From assembly GCA_900321605.1 (NCBI GenBank), contig ONWR01000007.1, forward strand, positions 88,376 to 152,375: a DNA stretch of 64,000 bases, read 5' to 3'. Source of the DNA: an uncultured Bacteroidales bacterium. Lineage in GTDB: Bacteria > Bacteroidota > Bacteroidia > Bacteroidales > Paludibacteraceae. Positions 14,305 to 62,107 of the stretch are shown here, piece after piece. Position 1 is the first letter of the stretch, and every line of letters starts with the position of its first letter. The position numbers were made by a program, and so were the translations under genes. Below the pieces are notes generated by a model, which ran no database searches, was not told the origin of the DNA, and was given only the letters and a program-made list of their open reading frames with translations.

Positions 14305-15426
14305 CTATTTTTTGCGTGCGGCGAAGAAGAGTTGGGCGGAGTTAAAGACATTTTGCCAGATGATATACGCCGCCGCTCCGAGGGAAGCCATGGGATCGAG
14401 ATACGTATTCGCCATCCAGACTCCGAGCGAGGTGTTTTTTTGTCCGAAAGCTTGTCCGGCAGTGATGGAAGAGACCCCCTGCATAGTAGAAGGAGCCGCC
14501 GCAGGGTTGATGAGGACATCTTGGTAGTCACGCCCTTTGCTGGCAGCAGGGAAATACCATCCGATGAGTTTGCCGAGGCTGAACTGCAACAAGCAAGCGA
14601 AGAAAGAACATACTAATAAAATTAGTATATTGGTCGTTAGTCGATGGTCATTGGTCGATGGCGATTGGTATTCTAAGACTATTGTAGAGGTGACGACGGC
14701 AGTAAGGACGAGGATGGAGGCGACCCAGAGGTAGAAGGGGATTTGTGCTAATCCGGGGGACAGGTTGAATTCTTTTTTATGACCGCCTTCGGCTGTAAGA
14801 CCACTATCGTTGTAAGACCGCTGCGCTGTAAGACCGGCTTCGCCTGTAAGATATTTTCTTCGTTGATAGAAATTATAGCCAAGGCGGAGGAGCCAAGCGG
14901 CAAAGAAAGGTCCGAGGAGAAGAGGTGCTACCCGGCTGAGAATGAGCCAGAAAGCAGGCCAGAAAGTCATGTTAGTTGCAGGATTGATGAGCGGGAAAGT
15001 GGCAGGGACGATGATGGCTGTAGCAAAATTGGAGAGAAGGGTAAACGTGGTGAGGTTTTGGATAGAACCACCGAGTTTGCCTGCGATGATGGGAGCAGCT
15101 GTAGCTGTGGGCATAATAAAACACATAAGGATACCTTGCGCAAGGACGGTATTACCTGATACATAGAGAGTTAGCCAATAAGTTGCGAAACTGAAAAAGA
15201 GCTGAAGCGCCAAAACGACTATATGCCATTTATGAAGACGCAGATCCATCGGATCGACCTTGCAAAAGGTAAAAAAGAGCATGAAGAAAATAAGCCAAGG
15301 GAGAATCGGCGCAAGAGGAAGGAAGAGTTGATAACCCACGGCTCCAATAAGCATGGAGAGCCAGAGGGAGGAAGAATCAAAGAATTTACGAAGGGACAAT
15401 GTACGATGTACAAAGGATTTTTTCAT
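14305..15426 (-). CDS. bile acid:sodium symporter (BASS) family transporter, carrying repeat-derived insertions
   Basis: A 373-residue polytopic membrane protein with about nine or ten hydrophobic helices. The core shows GILMCFIMPTATAAPIIAGK and NPAAAPSTMQGVSSITAGQ, as expected for the BASS/SBF fold that moves organic anions with sodium. Substrate unknown. Three segments are encoded by short repeats: the N-terminal SFVHRTLSLRKF (tgtacgaagg family), a loop starting YLTGEAGLTAQRSY at about residue 190 (element at 14781-14856), and SPSTNDHRLTTN at about 256 (tggtcgttgg family). Each falls at a helix boundary, so the protein could still fold. The gene follows the dihydrouridine synthase gene after a 50-base repeat-filled gap. 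Confidence 0.82.
   Translation of the reverse strand: MKKSFVHRTLSLRKFFDSSSLWLSMLIGAVGYQLFLPLAPILPWLIFFMLFFTFCKVDPMDLRLHKWHIVVLALQLFFSFATYWLTLYVSGNTVLAQGILMCFIMPTATAAPIIAGKLGGSIQNLTTFTLLSNFATAIIVPATFPLINPATNMTFWPAFWLILSRVAPLLLGPFFAAWLLRLGYNFYQRRKYLTGEAGLTAQRSYNDSGLTAEGGHKKEFNLSPGLAQIPFYLWVASILVLTAVVTSTIVLEYQSPSTNDHRLTTNILILLVCSFFACLLQFSLGKLIGWYFPAASKGRDYQDVLINPAAAPSTMQGVSSITAGQAFGQKNTSLGVWMANTYLDPMASLGAAAYIIWQNVFNSAQLFFAARKK
14634..14672. repeat. tggtcgttag/ttggtcgatgg repeat inside the transporter gene
   Basis: About four imperfect 9-10 base units of the ttggtcgatgg kind, translated on the minus strand as SPSTNDHRLTTN. The same family is inside the dihydrouridine synthase and gldD genes. Confidence 0.75.
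14781..14856 (+). repeat. modular hairpin repeat (GACCG...CTGTAA units), copy inside transporter gene
   Basis: Four head-to-tail units, each starting GACC and ending TGTAA with a variable core that is often a mini-palindrome (for example GGCTTCGCC), ended by GATATTTTC. The antisense strand is translated in the transporter as YLTGEAGLTAQRSYNDSGLT. Confidence 0.85.
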
Positions 15427-15450
15427 TTTCTCATTTACTCATTTATTTAA

Positions 15451-15470
15451 TCGCCCAATATTGGTCGATA
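15451..15470. repeat. palindromic element, TCGCCC-AATATT-GGTCGA form
   Basis: Arms TCGCCC/GGTCGA flank the core AATATT between the transporter gene and dusB. Confidence 0.7.
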
Positions 15471-15476
15471 GTATGT

Positions 15477-16559
15477 TTAACCCCATTTGGCGACGATGTC
15501 ATCCATGATCGCGAAGACCTCGGAGAGGGTTTCGGCACGGAGGAGGGCGATGCGGGTCTGCTTGAAGTTATCAAGACCTTTGAAGACCGGCGAGGCAGCA
15601 AAATGACGACGCGAATGAACGATGCCTTTGCGTTCGTCGTTGCCACACCAAGCGATGGAGGCAAGGACGTGCTCTTTCAAGACCGCGACCTTTTCCTCCA
15701 TTGACCGCGGCGGAGCCGCTGTAAGACCGCTACGCTGTAAGACCGCTGACGCTGTAAGACCGGCTTCGCCTGTAAGACAAGTATTGCCAGTAAGATATTC
15801 TTTCATTTCGGCGAAGAGCCATGGGGCACCAAAGGTAGCACGGCCGACCATGATGGCGTCCACGCCGTAACGATCAAAACACTCCTTCGCGCGCTCGGGC
15901 GTACACACGTCCCCGTTCCCTATTATAGGGATATGCATACGCGGGTTGTTCTTCACTTCTCCGATGAGGGTCCAATCTGCCTCTCCACGGTACATCTGTG
16001 AACGAGTGCGCCCATGGATAGCGAGTTCGGTGATGCCTTCATCTTGTAACCGCTCCGCGAGTTCCAAGATGAAAGTCGTTGGTCGTTGGTCTTTTGTCGT
16101 TAGTCCGGAAAGCCCGAGGGGATTGACGCGGGGATGAAGATCGGCATCATCCCAGCCCAGACGAGTCTTGGCGGTAACGGGTGTATGGACGGCGTTAACG
16201 ACTGCACGCGTTATTTCGAGCATTTTAGGCACATCGCGAAGGAGACCAGCTCCTGCTCCTTTGCCAGCTACTTTCTTGACCGGACAGCCGAAATTGATGT
16301 CGATGAAGTCGGGTTTGGCTTGCTCAACGATGAGGGCAGCATCCCGCATCGCTTCAGGTTCGCGACCATAGATCTGTATAGCCACGGGTCGTTCGGCATC
16401 GGAGATGGTCAGTTTGCGGGTAGTAGAAGCGATGTCCCGAACGAGTGCGTCGGCATTGACGAACTCGGTATAGACGCGATCAGCTCCGTAGCGTTTGCAG
16501 AGCGCACGGAAAGCCGGATCGGTAACGTCCTCCATGGGAGCCAAGTATAATTTATTCAT
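15477..16559 (-). CDS. dusB: tRNA-dihydrouridine synthase (DusB family), with two repeat-derived insertions
   Basis: This FMN enzyme reduces specific uridines in tRNA. The 360-residue protein shows MNKLYLAPMEDVTDPAFR, RPVAIQIYGREPEAM, FIDINFGCPVKKVAGKGAGA with the catalytic cysteine near residue 94, PVTAKTRLGWDD, ELAIHGRTRSQMY, IPIIGNGDV and DAIMVGRATFGAPW. Two extra segments are low-complexity and repeat-encoded: LTTKDQRPTTF (about 151-161, tggtcgttgg family) and LTGNTCLTGEAGLT onward (about 253-286, GACCG/CTGTAA element). Both lie outside the recognised motifs. It stands in a minus-strand run with the HD phosphohydrolase upstream. Confidence 0.92.
   Translation of the reverse strand: MNKLYLAPMEDVTDPAFRALCKRYGADRVYTEFVNADALVRDIASTTRKLTISDAERPVAIQIYGREPEAMRDAALIVEQAKPDFIDINFGCPVKKVAGKGAGAGLLRDVPKMLEITRAVVNAVHTPVTAKTRLGWDDADLHPRVNPLGLSGLTTKDQRPTTFILELAERLQDEGITELAIHGRTRSQMYRGEADWTLIGEVKNNPRMHIPIIGNGDVCTPERAKECFDRYGVDAIMVGRATFGAPWLFAEMKEYLTGNTCLTGEAGLTASAVLQRSGLTAAPPRSMEEKVAVLKEHVLASIAWCGNDERKGIVHSRRHFAASPVFKGLDNFKQTRIALLRAETLSEVFAIMDDIVAKWG
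15703..15799 (+). repeat. modular hairpin repeat (GACCG...CTGTAA), copy inside dusB
   Basis: Five units with cores including GCGGCGGAGCCGC, CTACGC, CTGACGC and GGCTTCGCC, ending in TAAGATATTC as in the transporter copy. The antisense strand is translated without a stop. Confidence 0.85.
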
Positions 16560-16578
16560 TTTCTTATTTTCTCATTTG

Positions 16579-16668
16579 GATCGCCCATGCATGGTCGATG
16601 CTATTTTTCAAGGTGGGGTACGAATCGCCCATGCATGGTCGATGCTATTTGTTCAAGGTGGGGTACGA
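16579..16668. repeat. tandem duplication of a 44-45 bp unit with TCGCCC-ATGCAT-GGTCGA palindrome
   Basis: Two nearly identical copies (16580-16623 and 16624-16668), each with the palindrome then ctattt, tcaaggtggggtacga. The second copy encodes the last residues (SYPTLNK) and stop of the HD protein. Confidence 0.85.
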
Positions 16669-18579
16669 AATACGATGATGGTTCATGGCGGTGAGACGAG
16701 CGACGAAGACACGGCGGATGTCCTCTACATCCTTGAAGGAGAGAGGTGTCTCGGAGAACTGTCCATCGGCTATCTGTGCATCGATCATCTGATTCACCGC
16801 TGCCGCAATCGACTCTTCGGAGAAATCCGAGAGGCTGCGTGAACGTGCTTCGACAGCATCTGCCATCATGAGGATAGCTGCCTCTTTGGTAGTGGGTTTG
16901 GGTCCCGGATAGCGGAAGAGCGACTCATCGACGTTCTCTTTCGGATGCGCGTTACACCATGTGTTATAGAAATAACGAACCAGCGAGTTGCCATGATGAG
17001 TGGTGATGAAATTGATAATCACCTCCGGCAGATGATGCTTACGCGCCAGTTTCTCTCCTTCGGTCACATGCGAGATGACGACCTTAGCCGCTTCACGGGG
17101 ATCCATCTCCAAGAGCGGGTTCTCCACGCCGACTTGGTTCTCCACGAAGAAGAAGGGATTCGCCATTTTGCCTATATCGTGATAGAGGGCACCTGTGCGG
17201 ACAAGGAGCGAATGTGCACCAATGACTTTCGCAGCTTCGGCCGCCAAGTTAGAGACTTGCATGGAGTGCTGGAACGTACCCGGAGCTTTCTCCGCCAAGG
17301 CGTGCAGGAGCTCGGAGTTGATGTCCGTGAGTTCAACAAGGGTCAGCGAAGAGATGAAACGGAACATTTTCTCAAAGGCGAAGATGAGTCCGTAGCAACC
17401 GATGGTGAGCAGTCCTGTGACGAAGAAATAGAAATACGTCCAAGGCTCGATAGCGCGCCACGTACCGGTTTGGGCAATGATGAGGGCGGTGTACATGAGT
17501 GCTTGGATCCAGAAGTTCCAAGTTGCAGTACGGAGCAGTTGTGCCCGGCGGGTCATGTCATTCAAGACGGAAATGGTAGCAAAGCCGACACCCAATTCGA
17601 TGAAGAGGAACTCCGTCGGCACCGGAACGACAATAGAGGTGATGAAGATCGTGATGAGATGGATAACCACCGCTGTACGGGAGTCGATGAAGACACGCGT
17701 AAGGATCGGAACCCACACAAAAGGCACAAGGTAAACCGACAATCCGAAATGCAAGCAGAGGCACGCCAAACCGATGACGAGGAACATCTGCAAGCAGAAG
17801 AACAGGACTTTCGAAAGCGAATCGAAGTACTGCCGCCGGAAGACTACGAGATAGAGCACAAAAAGGGCAAGGAAAAGAAGAACCAAGAGGGTCTTGCCGA
17901 AGAGCGCCCAACTACGTTGGCTATGTCCGAGCGCCTCACTCTCGTACGCCCGGCGAAGCGATTGAAGGGTTTGGTAGTCGCTCTCGGAGACGATCTCACC
18001 TTTCTCTATGATTTTCTCCCCTTTCTGGACAAGCCCTTGTGTGGGCGAGAGAGAAGAGAGGTGTTTCAATCGCATCCGGTCGGTCAGAAGGGTGTCGCGC
18101 ACGAGGTTCTGAGCGCAGTCATAGTTGAAATGCTCGAAAGCCGATTTGGGCGTATAGACCGACGAGAGGGGGTACGTCTTTTGCACTTTGCCCTGCGTGA
18201 CAGCAATGCGGCTGTATTCGTTTTCCTGCAGCCACTCCATCTCTTGAAGCGAGACGACGAGGACTTGGCGTTGCACCTGTGGGATGTATTTATAGCAAGG
18301 CACGAAGACGGAGAGGAGCTGTTTCTGCTCCTTGGCGAGTTGGTCGTCGGTTTTGTAGATGGGGAAATCAAAATCCGCTTCGAGCGTAGCGTACCCCCAC
18401 GGTTTGCCGACCTCAAAATGGTAGCGGAAAGTGTTGTCGTAGCGCGGGAAGAGGAGGACAATCACAGCCGCAAGTACCGCAAAAATGCCTAAGCGTAAGA
18501 AGACTGAGGCATATTTGGCATTTACCATTTTCTCATTTACCATTTGGTCATTTATTAGACCATTTAGCCATTTTATCAT
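16645..18579 (-). CDS. 7TM-HD family phosphohydrolase (PgpH-like)
   Basis: A 644-residue membrane enzyme. An N-terminal helix (FLRLGIFAVLAAVIVLL), an extracytoplasmic domain (about 50-230), about seven transmembrane helices (230-440), then a cytosolic HD domain with the characteristic histidines in ALYHDIGKMANPFFF and ITTHHGNSLVRYFY and with VISHVTEGEKLARKHHLP. In other phyla this family degrades cyclic di-AMP. The first residues MIKWLNGLINDQMVNEKM are encoded by a short repeat tract (18520-18565). The natural start may be the later methionine of MVNAKYASV (about residue 19). The C-terminus is also repeat-derived. It overlaps the upstream fusion gene by 4 bases (ATGA). Confidence 0.9.
   Translation of the reverse strand: MIKWLNGLINDQMVNEKMVNAKYASVFLRLGIFAVLAAVIVLLFPRYDNTFRYHFEVGKPWGYATLEADFDFPIYKTDDQLAKEQKQLLSVFVPCYKYIPQVQRQVLVVSLQEMEWLQENEYSRIAVTQGKVQKTYPLSSVYTPKSAFEHFNYDCAQNLVRDTLLTDRMRLKHLSSLSPTQGLVQKGEKIIEKGEIVSESDYQTLQSLRRAYESEALGHSQRSWALFGKTLLVLLFLALFVLYLVVFRRQYFDSLSKVLFFCLQMFLVIGLACLCLHFGLSVYLVPFVWVPILTRVFIDSRTAVVIHLITIFITSIVVPVPTEFLFIELGVGFATISVLNDMTRRAQLLRTATWNFWIQALMYTALIIAQTGTWRAIEPWTYFYFFVTGLLTIGCYGLIFAFEKMFRFISSLTLVELTDINSELLHALAEKAPGTFQHSMQVSNLAAEAAKVIGAHSLLVRTGALYHDIGKMANPFFFVENQVGVENPLLEMDPREAAKVVISHVTEGEKLARKHHLPEVIINFITTHHGNSLVRYFYNTWCNAHPKENVDESLFRYPGPKPTTKEAAILMMADAVEARSRSLSDFSEESIAAAVNQMIDAQIADGQFSETPLSFKDVEDIRRVFVARLTAMNHHRISYPTLNK
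18520..18572. repeat. catttaccatttggtcat-type repeat at an operon junction
   Basis: About five 10-base units of the form catttaccatt or tttggtcatt overlap the start of the HD protein gene and encode its first residues. Confidence 0.8.
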
Positions 18580-19850
18580 GATCTTTTGGATTTAAAAAAT
18601 TCTTGAATTAAGGACCTGCATTCGTCTTCGAGGACGCCGGAAGTGACGGTAGCTTTGGGATGAAAGACCCGTGGCGCGTACGTGGCGTAGCCTCTCTTGG
18701 GATCCGGTGCACCGTACACGATGCGGCTTATCTGCGACCACCCTATAGCTCCTGCGCACATGGGGCAGGGTTCGACGGTGACATAGAGGGTTGCGTCCGG
18801 CAGGTATTTGCCGCCAAGGGTTTGCGCAGCGGCTGTGATCGCTTGTATCTCTGCGTGCGCGGTAACATCCGAAAGGGTCTCGGTGAGGTTATGTCCGCGT
18901 CCGATGATCCGGTTATTAGAGACGATGACGCAACCGATGGGGATCTCGTCGGCTTCGAGTGCCTTTTGCGCCTCTAAGAGGGCGAGGCGCATGAAGCGCA
19001 CATCTGTTGACCGCTGCGCTGTAAGACCGGCTTCGCCTGTAGGACCGCTGACGCTGTAAGACCGCTCACTTTCGTTCGCTGTAAGATATTTTGAACGAAC
19101 AAAGTTCGTGAGTTCTTCGGGATGCGACTCGAAATGGTTGCCAATGACGACGATGTCAGCTCCTGCGGAATAGGCGGTGTTCATCGCTTCTGGCGTACGG
19201 ATGCCTCCACCGACGATGAGGGTGATAGAGGTGTTTTGTCGCACCGCGCGGATGATGTCGGGCGAGACGGGCACTTTGGCACCGGAACCAGCCTCCAGAT
19301 AGATCGCTTTCTTGCCCATCAGTTCGGCAGCGATGCAGGTGTCGATGATGGTTGGCAGGTCTGAAGGGTTGAGGGGTTTCGTTCCCGTTACGCGCATGGT
19401 GGAGGTCTCTACCCCACCGTCGATGAGGATATAAGCCGTGGGGATCACCTCTACCGATGAATTATGAATACGCCGTGCAGAGCGAATCTGCTGAGTAACA
19501 AGGTATTCGGGGTTGTCTCCGGAAAGCAAAGAGAGGTAAAGGATAGCGTCCGCTTCGGGCGTAAACTGTGCGGCGTTGCCGGGGAAGAGGATGATGGGCG
19601 GACGCCCATGACCGGCTTCGCCTGTAAGACCGCTTTGCTGTAGGACCGCTTCGCTGTAAGACCGCTCACATTCGTTCGCTGTAAGACGGTCTTTGAGGGC
19701 GCGGACGAAAGGCGTAGTGTCACCGCCGGTGGAGCCACCGACGAAGATATAATCGGGGCAGCAGTCCGCCGAGAGCGGAAGGGCGAATAGATCGGCTTTC
19801 TCGGGATCGAGGAGAAGCGCTAAGGCTTTATTTTTATTGACGATTGACAA
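18576..19850 (-). CDS. fusion: GGGP synthase (N-terminal) plus tRNA-specific adenosine deaminase TadA (C-terminal)
   Basis: One 424-residue frame joins two complete enzymes. Residues about 1-252 are a geranylgeranylglyceryl-phosphate synthase-type TIM barrel: LALLLDPEKADL, DYIFVGGSTGGDTTPF, IYLEAGSGAKVPV, IVGGGIRTPE and VIGNHFE. Bacteroidetes members of this family make prenyl ether lipid precursors. Residues about 283-424 are TadA, which edits A34 of tRNA to inosine: AHAEIQAI supplies the zinc histidine and catalytic glutamate and EPCPMCAGAI the two cysteines. The linker (about 253-281) is a translated GACCG/CTGTAA element, and another copy sits at about 55-80. An element inserted across a lost stop codon would explain the fusion. 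Neighbours are gldD upstream and the HD gene downstream. Confidence 0.9.
   Translation of the reverse strand: MSIVNKNKALALLLDPEKADLFALPLSADCCPDYIFVGGSTGGDTTPFVRALKDRLTANECERSYSEAVLQQSGLTGEAGHGRPPIILFPGNAAQFTPEADAILYLSLLSGDNPEYLVTQQIRSARRIHNSSVEVIPTAYILIDGGVETSTMRVTGTKPLNPSDLPTIIDTCIAAELMGKKAIYLEAGSGAKVPVSPDIIRAVRQNTSITLIVGGGIRTPEAMNTAYSAGADIVVIGNHFESHPEELTNFVRSKYLTANESERSYSVSGPTGEAGLTAQRSTDVRFMRLALLEAQKALEADEIPIGCVIVSNNRIIGRGHNLTETLSDVTAHAEIQAITAAAQTLGGKYLPDATLYVTVEPCPMCAGAIGWSQISRIVYGAPDPKRGYATYAPRVFHPKATVTSGVLEDECRSLIQEFFKSKRS
19009..19092 (+). repeat. modular hairpin repeat, copy forming the GGGPS-TadA linker
   Basis: Four units (cores CTGCGC, GGCTTCGCC, CTGACGC and CTCACTTTCGTTCGC), ended by TAAGATATTTTG. 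The antisense strand is translated as KYLTANESERSYSV then SGPTGEAGLTAQRS. Confidence 0.85.
19610..19687 (+). repeat. modular hairpin repeat, copy inside the GGGPS domain
   Basis: Four units with cores GGCTTCGCC, CTTTGC, CTTCGC and CTCACATTCGTTCGC. It is translated on the antisense strand as RLTANECERSYSEAVLQQ followed by SGLTGEAG. Confidence 0.85.
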
Positions 19851-19893
19851 ATTTACGATGTACGATTTATTGACGATTTATAATATTGACGAT
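19845..19893. repeat. ttgacgattta-type repeat tract
   Basis: Imperfect copies of attgacgattta and tacgatgtac between gldD and the fusion gene. The first codons of the fusion gene (MSIVNK) overlap it. Confidence 0.65.
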
Positions 19894-20550
19894 TTATTTC
19901 CAGCGGAAGGTCTCTACCATTTTGACGATATCCGTGCGGAGATAGTTATATACAGGCGCTAAGGAATCAGCGTTCGGACGACAGTTACAATAGACCGATG
20001 CGCGGAAGAAATGATGCGTAGAATCGGTAATAAAGAACTGGCAGGAGGACGCTGTATTTCCCTCTAAATCAAAGAGTAAGCCATATACTTTTGCTTCGGG
20101 GTGCGCGTATTCGCGTTCGGGTATCGCATTGGCAAAAGAGGCGTTGCGGTACACAAACTCGAGAGCATCTTCGGTGAGCTCGCGCAGATTATTACGAACG
20201 GGTTTGTAGGAGCAATGGATAGTAGCATCAAAGACAGGATAATAGATGTTGATCCAATAGGGTTCATCGACATCCTTGCGGGGTTTGACTACTGCGTTTT
20301 TCGAGAGGGCGAAGGTGTAAGGGTAGTTGGTCGATGGTCGTTGGTCGTTGGTCGATGGTCGTTGGTCGTTGCGGGACAGAGCCTGTCGTTGGGCAAGTTG
20401 AAAATCCGTATAGGCAGTGTCGGGAACGGAGATGCGGTAGTAACCATACGGACGGGGAGTATAGTTATTGCTGCATGAGACACACAATAATATTAAATTA
20501 AAAATTAAAAATTCAAAATTAAAAAATCTATTTTTTTGTAAAAAGCCCAT
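19894..20550 (-). CDS. gldD: gliding motility / type IX secretion lipoprotein GldD
   Basis: GldD is an inner-membrane-anchored lipoprotein needed for gliding and type IX secretion in Bacteroidetes. ATG 20550 gives 218 residues with a lipoprotein signal ending LLCVSC, then the family pattern NYTPRPYGYYRISVP, YWINIYYPVFDATIHCSY, and the C-terminal VKMVETFRWK. Earlier in-frame ATGs would put the promoter inside the gene and are rejected. Residues about 57-75 (NDQRPSTNDQRPSTN) are a tandem repeat encoded by the tggtcgttgg family and are not a family feature. GldD fits with the secreted proteins with type IX-like tails elsewhere in the window. Confidence 0.9.
   Translation of the reverse strand: MGFLQKNRFFNFEFLIFNLILLCVSCSNNYTPRPYGYYRISVPDTAYTDFQLAQRQALSRNDQRPSTNDQRPSTNYPYTFALSKNAVVKPRKDVDEPYWINIYYPVFDATIHCSYKPVRNNLRELTEDALEFVYRNASFANAIPEREYAHPEAKVYGLLFDLEGNTASSCQFFITDSTHHFFRASVYCNCRPNADSLAPVYNYLRTDIVKMVETFRWK
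20325..20380. repeat. tandem ttggtcg(t/a)tgg repeat inside gldD
   Basis: Six consecutive 9-base units give a repeated 18-base pattern that is translated as two copies of NDQRPST. Confidence 0.85.
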
Positions 20551-20569
20551 AATCTTCCAAATTAGGGTA

Positions 20570-20616
20570 CAAAGGTACAAAAAAAAGTTGAAAGTTGAAA
20601 GTTGAAAGTTGAAAGA
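20570..20616 (-). promoter_or_regulatory. gldD promoter with 7-mer repeats over the -33 region
   Basis: The -7 box TACCTTTG (minus strand, 20570-20577) is intact. The -33 position falls in four tandem copies of a 7-mer (gttgaaa, 20587-20614), giving CTTT instead of TTTG. Confidence 0.55.
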
Positions 20617-20668
20617 TTTCACTTTTTTGCATAAAAATGCACTTTTTTATAAAAAATGTACGTGCGCG

Positions 20669-20700
20669 CTTGCGTATATAAAAAAAAAGTTGTAACTTTG
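20669..20700 (+). promoter_or_regulatory. promoter for manC and possibly the glycogen genes
   Basis: CTTG (20669-20672), 20 bases, TAACTTTG (20693-20700). The transcript would have a leader of about 160 bases before ATG 20871. The leader holds gcgcaaatatgcgc, a short palindrome, and nothing else that I recognise. Confidence 0.75.
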
Positions 20701-20870: not shown

Positions 20871-22100
20871 ATGACAAAGAAAGAAAATAACTATTGTGTA
20901 ATCATGGCGGGCGGCATAGGAAGCCGTTTCTGGCCGTTCAGCCGAGAAGAAAAACCGAAACAGTTCTTGGACTTTTTCGGCACAGGTAAGAGTTTATTGC
21001 AGATGACGGTGGATCGTTTTCGTCCCATCGTTCCCATCGAGAATATGTTCATTGTGACGAACGTAGCGTACAAGCAGATCATCATGGAGCAGATACCGGA
21101 TTTGGCAGACGTGCAGATCTTATGCGAACCGGCGAGAAGGAACACAGCTCCGTGTATTGCTTATGCAACGGCGCATATCCGTGCGTTGTGTTTGCAGAAA
21201 GCCTATAAATGGACGAAAGACGAATGTACGCAGTACGAAGGATATACCAAAGAAGGAAGCATGAAAGGAAACAAGAACCTTCCCAAGTATCAGGATATCG
21301 ATTGGAGTAAGCCGGAGATGCAGGCGAATATCGTAGTAGCAGCAAGTGACCATTTGATTTTAGAGGAAGAGAAATTCCGTGACACTATCTGCAAGGCGTT
21401 TGAGTTCGTGAGCCAAAACAAGGCGATCGCTACTTTGGGCATGCAGCCGACAAGACCGGAGACAGGATACGGATATATTCAGTATCTTAATGTACAAGGG
21501 GACAATGTACAATGTACAAAGGGGATTTATCCGGTGAAGACGTTTACGGAGAAGCCGAATTTGGAGATGGCCAAAGTGTTCTTGGAGAGCGGCGATTTTC
21601 TGTGGAACTCGGGAATCTTCATTTGGAACTTACAGACCATTAGTGAGGCGTTCCGTTATTTGCTGCCGGAAGTGGCAGACCGTTTCCGCGAAGGCGAGTT
21701 GCTGATGGGAACTGAGAAAGAGGAAGCGTTCATCGAAGAGATCTTCCCGAAATGTCCGAATATCTCGATTGACTACGGTATCATGGAGAAAGCGGAGAAC
21801 GTGTTCGTGCTGCCGAGCAGTTTCGGATGGAGCGATTTGGGCACATGGGGCAGTTTGTATGAGTTGAGCGAGAAAGACGAGGCAGGCAATGTGAGTCTGC
21901 ACAGCGAGGCTCTGTTCTACGAGGCAAACGGTAATGTAGTGACCTTGGAGCCGGGTAAGTTAGCGGTAGTACAAGGTGTGGACGACATGATCATTGCGGA
22001 GCAGAAGGGTGTTCTGCTGGTTTGCAAGAAAGCCGAGGAGCAGCGCATCAAACAGTTTGTAGCAGATGCCAAAAACAAATTTGCCGGACAATTTAATTAA
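20871..22100 (+). CDS. manC: mannose-1-phosphate guanylyltransferase
   Basis: This enzyme makes GDP-mannose from mannose-1-phosphate and GTP for polysaccharide synthesis. Signature sequences are VIMAGGIGSRFWPFSREEKP, QILCEPARRNTAPCIAYAT, VVAASDHLI, ETGYGYIQY, FTEKPNLEMAK, WNSGIFIW and SIDYGIMEKA. At 409 residues it is about 50 longer than the usual single-domain enzyme. The excess is a lysine- and tyrosine-rich insertion at about 107-143 and a short NVQGDNVQCTKG at about 207-218. The second is plainly a translated tgtacaaagg repeat, and the first contains related words. It is followed 32 bases later by the debranching enzyme gene. Confidence 0.94.
   Translation: MTKKENNYCVIMAGGIGSRFWPFSREEKPKQFLDFFGTGKSLLQMTVDRFRPIVPIENMFIVTNVAYKQIIMEQIPDLADVQILCEPARRNTAPCIAYATAHIRALCLQKAYKWTKDECTQYEGYTKEGSMKGNKNLPKYQDIDWSKPEMQANIVVAASDHLILEEEKFRDTICKAFEFVSQNKAIATLGMQPTRPETGYGYIQYLNVQGDNVQCTKGIYPVKTFTEKPNLEMAKVFLESGDFLWNSGIFIWNLQTISEAFRYLLPEVADRFREGELLMGTEKEEAFIEEIFPKCPNISIDYGIMEKAENVFVLPSSFGWSDLGTWGSLYELSEKDEAGNVSLHSEALFYEANGNVVTLEPGKLAVVQGVDDMIIAEQKGVLLVCKKAEEQRIKQFVADAKNKFAGQFN
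21488..21526. repeat. tgtacaagg-type repeat inside manC
   Basis: Three units of the form aatgtacaa(a)ggg are inserted in frame and translated as NVQGDNVQCTKG. Confidence 0.8.
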
Positions 22101-22132
22101 AAATAATCCTACTTAATACTTAATCAAACATC

Positions 22133-62010: not shown

Positions 62011-62084
62011 GTCTTACAGGCGAAGCCGGTCTTACAGCGTAGCGATCCTACAGTGTAAGCGGTCTTACAGCCCAAAGGGCGGTC
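62011..62084 (-). repeat. modular hairpin repeat (GACCG...CTGTAA), intergenic copy in opposite orientation
   Basis: Four units with cores CCCTTTGGG, CTTACA, CTACGC and GGCTTCGCC, read on the minus strand. It is the only one of the five copies that is not inside a gene. Confidence 0.85.
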
Positions 62085-62107
62085 TGTTCGGCAAACGCCG
62101 AACATTT

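Follow-up and report, generated by a model that had tools for sequence, protein, structure and literature searches.

Tandem mini-hairpin arrays in the reading frames of genes from a Paludibacteraceae genus

How do tandem DNA hairpins come to lie inside conserved genes without closing their reading frames? This question is raised by a 64,000-nt stretch from an uncultured Bacteroidales bacterium of the family Paludibacteraceae (assembly GCA_900321605.1, contig ONWR01000007.1, positions 88,376–152,375; hereafter, the window), for which a preliminary description had reported five copies of a hairpin-unit repeat. All five were found where reported (Table 1), and the family was followed through the source metagenome-assembled genome (MAG), a draft of 2.32 Mb in 64 contigs that is 94.9% complete, and through related genomes. 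We consider it likely that the arrays are non-autonomous elements resembling repetitive extragenic palindromic (REP) sequences, composed of mini-hairpins of single-stranded DNA, that multiplied in one Paludibacteraceae genus and are tolerated in frame within genes.

The hairpin unit and its arrays

On the coding strand, each unit consists of TTACA, a hairpin core and GGTC, and the units follow one another head to tail; they are mostly 16–25 nt long, with most at 16–18 nt. The pattern TTACAGN{3,25}GGTC occurs 19 times in the window, where 1.94 matches would be expected, and none of 100 dinucleotide shuffles reached that number. With at most one mismatch, GGTCTTACAG has 21 matches in the window against 2.58 expected. 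Across the whole MAG, GGTCTTACAG has 32 matches against one for the reversed control. By our own grouping, the whole-MAG matches form about 17 arrays or single units. The family is thus not confined to the window, and its tandem pattern recurs in 49 further genomes of the genus, in 50 of 178 altogether; seven of these have just one match, and the reversed control gave two matches in total.

The arrays have a defined anatomy. Among 62 arrays of at least three units, some of them orthologous to one another, 40 have four units, 15 have three, four have five and three have six. The outer hairpins are longer: cores of at least nine bases occupy the first position in 30/62 arrays and the last in 27/62, compared with 19.2 expected for each when unit order is shuffled within arrays (p = 0.0006 and 0.011, respectively). 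The first unit is preceded by T in 60/62 and by C in 60/62 arrays, and the last GGTC is followed by A or T in 54/62. Judged as a possible miniature inverted-repeat transposable element, of which terminal inverted repeats would be expected, the arrays have ends (TC...GGTC) that stand in direct order. Units with the same core make up 34 of 370 pairs within arrays, roughly double the proportion between arrays (0.040).

The hairpin itself is under constraint. We extracted 402 units with distinct surroundings without requiring pairing. Stem position 2 is a Watson-Crick pair in 188/194 seven-base cores (shuffle mean 139, maximum 152), 60/64 eight-base cores (48.4, 54), 52/55 nine-base cores (29.6, 39) and 21/22 eleven-base cores (8.7, 16), these counts not being independent because the units are partly related by orthology. 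Stems comprise 2–5 bp in nearly all units; most stems are G-C, with G-C as the first pair in most units, and a minority have an A-T pair. The loop is GNA in 144/194 seven-base, 49/55 nine-base and 16/22 eleven-base cores and GNNA in 58/64 eight-base cores, 35 of these 58 being other than GNRA. Overall, 267 of the 335 cores of 7, 8, 9 or 11 bases have a GNA or GNNA loop, the remaining 67 of the 402 units having other core lengths. All eight sixteen-base cores contain tandem GA/AG mismatches.

PMC4686876 describes DNA mini-hairpins as extraordinarily stable if the loop is GNA or GNNA and the stem includes two or more G-C pairs; GCGAAGC melts at 78 °C and resists nucleases. Most array units are of this type and share the core, loop type and G-C stem of d(GCGAAGC). 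In the literature surveyed, such hairpins figure as isolated oligonucleotides or parts of aptamers, with no dispersed genomic family among them. Given the loop type, the structure probably acts as a hairpin in single-stranded DNA, either recognised or formed there.

Table 1. Hairpin arrays and their host genes in the window (positions are those of the 64,000-nt stretch; ORF, open reading frame)
Feature	Position	Strand	Context
Four-unit array	14781–14849	-	Within SBF-like transporter ORF 14305–15426; peptide LTGEAGLTAQRSYNDSGLTAEGG
Four-unit array	15703–15775	-	Within DusB ORF 15477–16559, approximately residues 262–286, past the catalytic part
Possible degenerate extra unit (TTACT..TGTC)	15776–15793	-	Adjoins the DusB array; suggested by the sequence
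Four-unit array	19009–19084	-	PcrB/TadA linker, ORF 18576–19850, approximately residues 256–280
Four-unit array	19610–19684	-	Within PcrB part, ORF 18576–19850, approximately residues 56–80
Array of about four units	62014–62084	+	Apparently intergenic; ORF with ATG near 62107 downstream
SBF/BASS-like transporter gene	14305–15426	-	Pfam match below family cut-off
tRNA-dihydrouridine synthase DusB gene (Dus, PF01207)	15477–16559	-	ORF and Pfam
PcrB (GGGP synthase family) gene fused to TadA-like deaminase	18576–19850	-	ORF and Pfam

Reading frame and position in the host proteins

As the preliminary description had it, four of the window arrays lie in three genes, here minus-strand ORFs, all in the sense orientation and free of stop codons. 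The fifth, which it called intergenic, does look intergenic upstream of the ATG, but an open frame crosses the array into the next ORF, and a start upstream of the array is possible. In the whole MAG, ten arrays are sense-oriented and open in genes identified by ORFs and Pfam, which encode the SBF-like transporter, DusB, PcrB-TadA (two arrays), RecF (two), LpxB, a GSCFA protein, a DUF4861 protein and a FAD-dependent protein. The family thus forms a palindromic repeat present in frame and without stops in many unrelated genes. An eleventh array lies in an open frame at the N-terminus, before an LptE-like domain, where a translation start upstream of the array is uncertain; codon scoring placed the two flanks of this array, and likewise those of the DUF4861 array, in different frames. 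The remaining copies, the fifth window copy included, are non-coding or of unclear status. One array, in UvrA (L019, G000:C39:85822), is antisense yet open in frame.

Orientation and frame were assessed across the family. At least one sense-strand frame is free of stops in 75/77 arrays of three or more units, and at least one antisense frame in 36/77; conversely, all three frames are closed in 41/77 arrays on the antisense strand and in 2/77 on the sense strand. Most antisense units contain TAA or TAG, so that the sense bias arises at least partly because the antisense strand carries stops. For 106 entries from 12 genomes, codon usage was scored in the two 210-nt flanks apart from the array. 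Both flanks scored best in the sense frame in 63 entries, with one open frame running through the array in 56 and not in 7; many of these scores are low, and only 9 of the 56 exceed the confidence threshold in both flanks. Both flanks were antisense in 28 entries, only 5 of which are open in one frame, and the flanks were mixed in 15.

Frame is also conserved when arrays change length. Among orthologous coding arrays with alignable flanks ("coding" meaning that a sense frame stays open across the array and its flanks), every one of the 17 length differences other than zero is a multiple of 3, and five more comparisons gave zero, these comparisons not being independent because the base array is common to them. 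At non-coding sites, the non-zero differences are 32 and -3, with two more of zero; a pair whose coding status is uncertain differs by -9. Since 17/17 differences are multiples of 3 although most units are 16–18 nt long, the arrays are, by all indirect tests, almost certainly translated and should add 20–30 residues to loops and linkers. If instead the array were spliced out of the RNA or skipped by the ribosome, the protein would stay unchanged, which would suit conserved genes interrupted by hairpins. A skipped insert, however, needs neither lengths in multiples of three nor open frames, and both hold; the RNA of the window arrays also folds no better than shuffled sequences, and we regard removal or bypass as barely conceivable.

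The preliminary description proposed that the arrays be mapped against domain boundaries, and the outcome depends on the site. The arrays within PcrB, at the PcrB-TadA junction and at the second of two RecF sites, B, each separate blocks that align to solved structures; the one within PcrB lies just before the block of residues 83–243, and the junction array lies between this block and the next (281–423). In DusB, alignments to solved structures run up to residue 258, immediately ahead of the array, with nothing aligned beyond it. At RecF site A, solved structures align through the array, with gaps.

PcrB and TadA are fused as one ORF in roughly 36 of the 101 genomes searched and are seemingly separate genes in most others; the content of the linker varies between species, and several linkers are repeats. 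The idea that arrays generally caused the fusion was rejected: the two are one ORF in all of the best 30 loci, only about ten of which have a linker array by eye, three of these being degenerate or of a TGTCA type. Array ORFs at three further loci (L225, L238 and L155) have an LIEKGETVFLP-like sequence downstream, and we take the arrays to lie in the linker joining RibB to RibA in a putative fusion. L225 is orthologous to L238 and aligns with L155 at 75%.

Turnover at fixed sites and taxonomic spread

The arrays have been gained or lost recently at fixed sites. A relative, G146, is 90% identical to the window region over 4.5 kb and 97% identical beside RecF site A. Its DusB lacks the array (78-nt difference), its PcrB-TadA linker contains another, NDQMVNE-type repeat instead (24-nt difference), its PcrB site holds a single TGTCA-type unit and is 48 nt shorter, and its transporter site, where the flanks align weakly, is 84 nt shorter. 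When G194 and G167 (three sites each) are added, 10/10 differences at the window sites are multiples of three, the orthologues without the element being shorter by such amounts; these comparisons include relatives with other filler, and one relative keeps a single unit. The segments are therefore not ordinary loops conserved among orthologues, near relatives having either nothing or something else in their place.

The variety of fillers is greatest in RecF, which we surveyed in the best 30 loci, from 30 of the 116 genomes with a match. There, sites A and B have 28 and 26 distinct fillers of 5–32 and 3–44 residues, respectively, the shortest form being present in three genomes at each site. By eye, hairpin arrays occur in this sample only in the window's own genome, with a single unit in L380; several of the other fillers are repeats of different kinds, namely GAATCAG and GTTGAAA heptads and CCCTCCC/GGGAGGG palindromes. 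G146 has a GAATCAG heptad at site B between flanks that are 90–97% identical. The DusB and PcrB-TadA sites follow the same pattern of varied fillers by eye. With at most two mismatches, GTTGAAAGTTGAAAGTT has 133 matches in the window's own genome, 121 in G161 and 3 in G004; a control with the heptad pattern reversed was uninformative, since reversal gives almost the same repeat.

We tentatively propose, as a possibility and not an expectation, that certain loops and linkers of core proteins in this genus are slots, repeatedly emptied and then refilled in frame by whichever short repeat family is active in the lineage, with mini-hairpin arrays, heptad repeats and GC-rich palindromes as candidate fillers. 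Refilling of the same protein loops by several repeat families is the most surprising part of these results.

The same observations may be explained without any mobile element. Linker turnover could be driven by template switching, or by ectopic conversion, among short repeats of several unrelated families scattered through the genome, the hairpin array being only one such family, whose hairpins would stall replication and supply microhomology. The diversity of the RecF fillers, several of which are other repeats, the replacements in G146 at RecF site B and in the PcrB-TadA linker, and the uneven abundance of GTTGAAAGTTGAAAGTT all speak for this explanation. The repeat nature is established for some fillers only, the reversed heptad controls are uninformative, and turnover alone leaves unexplained the predominance of four units, the longer outer hairpins and the fixed TC and GGTC ends. 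We consider it a credible alternative that has somewhat less than an even chance of being correct. Selection of the peptides as flexible linkers or interaction motifs could account for the recurrent linker and loop positions and for similar peptide words (LTAxRSYSxSGLT). However, orthologues have empty sites or unrelated fillers, noncoding copies exist, and the words are similar because the DNA repeat itself is similar; such functional modules are quite improbable.

Several side observations concern related repeats. Translations in relatives (L319, L321, L352, L360 and L536) suggest a variant unit with TGTCA for TTACA (peptide LSAKRSVSETVC). In the window, other short repeats, GGTCGTT/GGTCATT heptads and AATGGTNAATGACC-like sequences, lie at 14635–14675, 18520–18580, 19836–19896 and 20558–20700; some of them are translated, as NDQRPST and NDQMVNE words, and all but the first of these stretches have matches at many places in relatives. 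An array in UBA4295 (L099:2718-2795) is 88.6% like the window DusB array and was rejected as its orthologue, as it occupies a different place, at which the window (22060–22110) has no array.

Real arrays are concentrated around the genus. Of 393 genomes sampled from the order, 15 have matches: that of the window, a second one from its genus and 13 more, each of these 13 with one or two isolated matches and no paired cores by eye. Among 80 loci listed from named species genomes, 11 loci from 8 genomes contain real arrays, and the 8 array-bearing genomes among the matches listed are all titled Paludibacteraceae or Bacteroidales (for example, UBA4295). A script filter had passed 13 of these loci, of which L104 and L157 were removed by eye because their units lack stems. 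Over 4.7 kb, the UBA4295 locus L099 can be aligned to the window at 81%, and three loci titled Paludibacteraceae (L117, L119 and L155) align to loci of the window's genus at 70–76%; these alignments support placing the window in that family. A wide taxonomic spread was rejected, since 69 of the 80 listed species-genome loci look like chance matches, as was spread in phages: viral contigs gave 83 matches in 80 listed loci, none with hairpins in both neighbouring units.

Origin of the arrays and relation to known elements

If the arrays are REP-like elements, the element would be the TTACA-hairpin-GGTC unit, mostly in runs of four that are preceded by TC. Copies landing in genes would survive mainly when they are sense-oriented, in frame and placed in a loop or linker that tolerates extra residues, and would then be translated as ordinary protein sequence; later gain, loss or alteration of units would be retained only in combinations that keep the frame. 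Spread might proceed by a replication-linked or HUH-type process.

A number of results weigh against this reading. At the sites compared, we found neither clean insertion junctions nor empty sites with target-site duplication. Arrays at non-orthologous loci share unit order in 5 pairs against 6.5 expected, which argues against the copying of whole four-unit cassettes as a general rule, and this route was discarded as unsupported. Near-invariant stem positions show no covariation excess (pair 3 of nine-base cores, for instance, pairs in 51 cases where 51.1 are expected). The five whole window arrays fold no better than shuffled sequences, either as DNA (Vienna; z from -2.0 to +1.5, the intergenic array alone being an exception below -1, at -2.0) or as RNA (z from -0.7 to +2.4), so that covariation and loop type carry the structural claim; the absence of excess RNA folding in these arrays led us to reject an RNA function. 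The alignment that runs through RecF site A, with gaps, counts on the same side. Finally, the Y1/RAYT family (PF01797) has no match in the 94.9% complete draft MAG or in array-rich G026, G076 and G086, and over 178 genomes it is found in 23/50 array-positive and 45/128 array-negative genomes (Fisher p = 0.23). As the MAG is a draft, the lack of a match in it is provisional.

The RAYT results bear directly on a more conventional explanation, in which the units are REPs moved by a REP-associated tyrosine transposase (RAYT, an IS200/IS605-like Y1 transposase) that was missed in the draft. Short palindromes, fixed flanking bases, the single-strand hairpin character and the tandem layout all fit. 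According to PMC6006769, TnpAREP subclass 2.6, mostly from Bacteroidetes, has atypical flanking structures with copies elsewhere in the genome, and PF01797 matches (E ≤ 0.001) do occur in 68 of the 178 genus genomes, 48 of them above the cut-off. However, with no match in the four genomes named above, no association over the genus and unit flanks of GGTC/TTACA, not GTAG, we dismissed a RAYT as the driver, and this explanation is unlikely.

Two pairs of arrays resemble each other closely. The window PcrB-TadA linker array and L246:3280 are an exception to the unit-order result, having nearly the same cassette in different places. The near-identical three-unit arrays L247:3220 and L247:5260, which have the same bases on either side and are separated by about 2 kb, suggest a local duplication.

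The preliminary description likened the copies to in-frame palindromic elements of Rickettsia with a different unit structure. This comparison is supported: the two findings that would have spoken against it, a genome without other copies and orthologues with the same segments as ordinary loops, were both looked for, and the reverse was found. As described in PMC3733652, Rickettsia palindromic elements RPE-1, RPE-4 and RPE-6 are likewise palindromic, in frame in unrelated genes and clustered so as to give tens of residues, and RPE-1-bearing proteins are reported to be expressed. The present arrays belong to another phylum, and their units are much shorter (mostly 16–25 nt) and come about four to a chain; RPE-4 and RPE-6 bear a CGTC tag, whereas the array units are flanked by GGTC and TTACA.

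REP/BIME sequences and intragenic GTAG and CGTC REPs are similar in being short hairpins with a fixed tetranucleotide, some of them in genes. According to the same source, GTAG and CGTC REPs inside genes encode 20–30 residues as dimers or groups and 43–82 as clusters, many in repair genes, uvrA included, and CGTC repeats have no dedicated transposase. CGTC REPs are defined there by a CGTC end, a stem of 8–9 bp with A-T in the first two positions and a loop of 4–5 nt. The arrays, in contrast, have GGTC tags (our parsers took GGTC or AGTC, leaving CGTC variants uncounted) and, in nearly all units, stems of 2–5 bp that mostly begin with G-C. They also differ from GTAG REPs in that the hairpin neighbours are TTACA and GGTC, not GTAG or GTGG, and no RAYT match is present in the draft genome. 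Whereas REPs are mostly intergenic, 10 or 11 of the approximately 17 array copies in this genome are in a coding frame. Coding palindromes of Nematomorpha mitochondria and palindromes of Volvox mitochondria are also inverted repeats in coding sequence or thought to be selfish, but these are long inverted repeats or organelle DNA without hairpin chains.

The arrays thus behave like in-frame palindromic elements and differ from them in tag and stem, which makes them a new family of known behaviour. The preliminary statement that no description was known for this phylum requires amendment, as Bacteroidetes are among the phyla from which CGTC-type palindromic repeats were reported (PMC3733652); we recognised no description of the hairpin-array family itself in Bacteroidota in the open-licence literature, whose partial coverage leaves its absence unproven.

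With these arrays, the range of translated palindromic elements comes to include an uncultured lineage of gut Bacteroidota, and a dispersed genomic repeat is tied to the DNA-specific mini-hairpin of biophysics, which makes a single-strand DNA mechanism directly testable. If the slot reading is true, a group-specific mutational process would be continuously rewriting protein linkers genome-wide. Linkers in such MAG proteins may be repeat-derived and call for caution. Loops of RecF, DusB, LpxB and other proteins appear tolerant of 20–30 extra residues. The 50 of 178 genomes with the tandem pattern offer a natural experiment on how non-coding repeats become protein.

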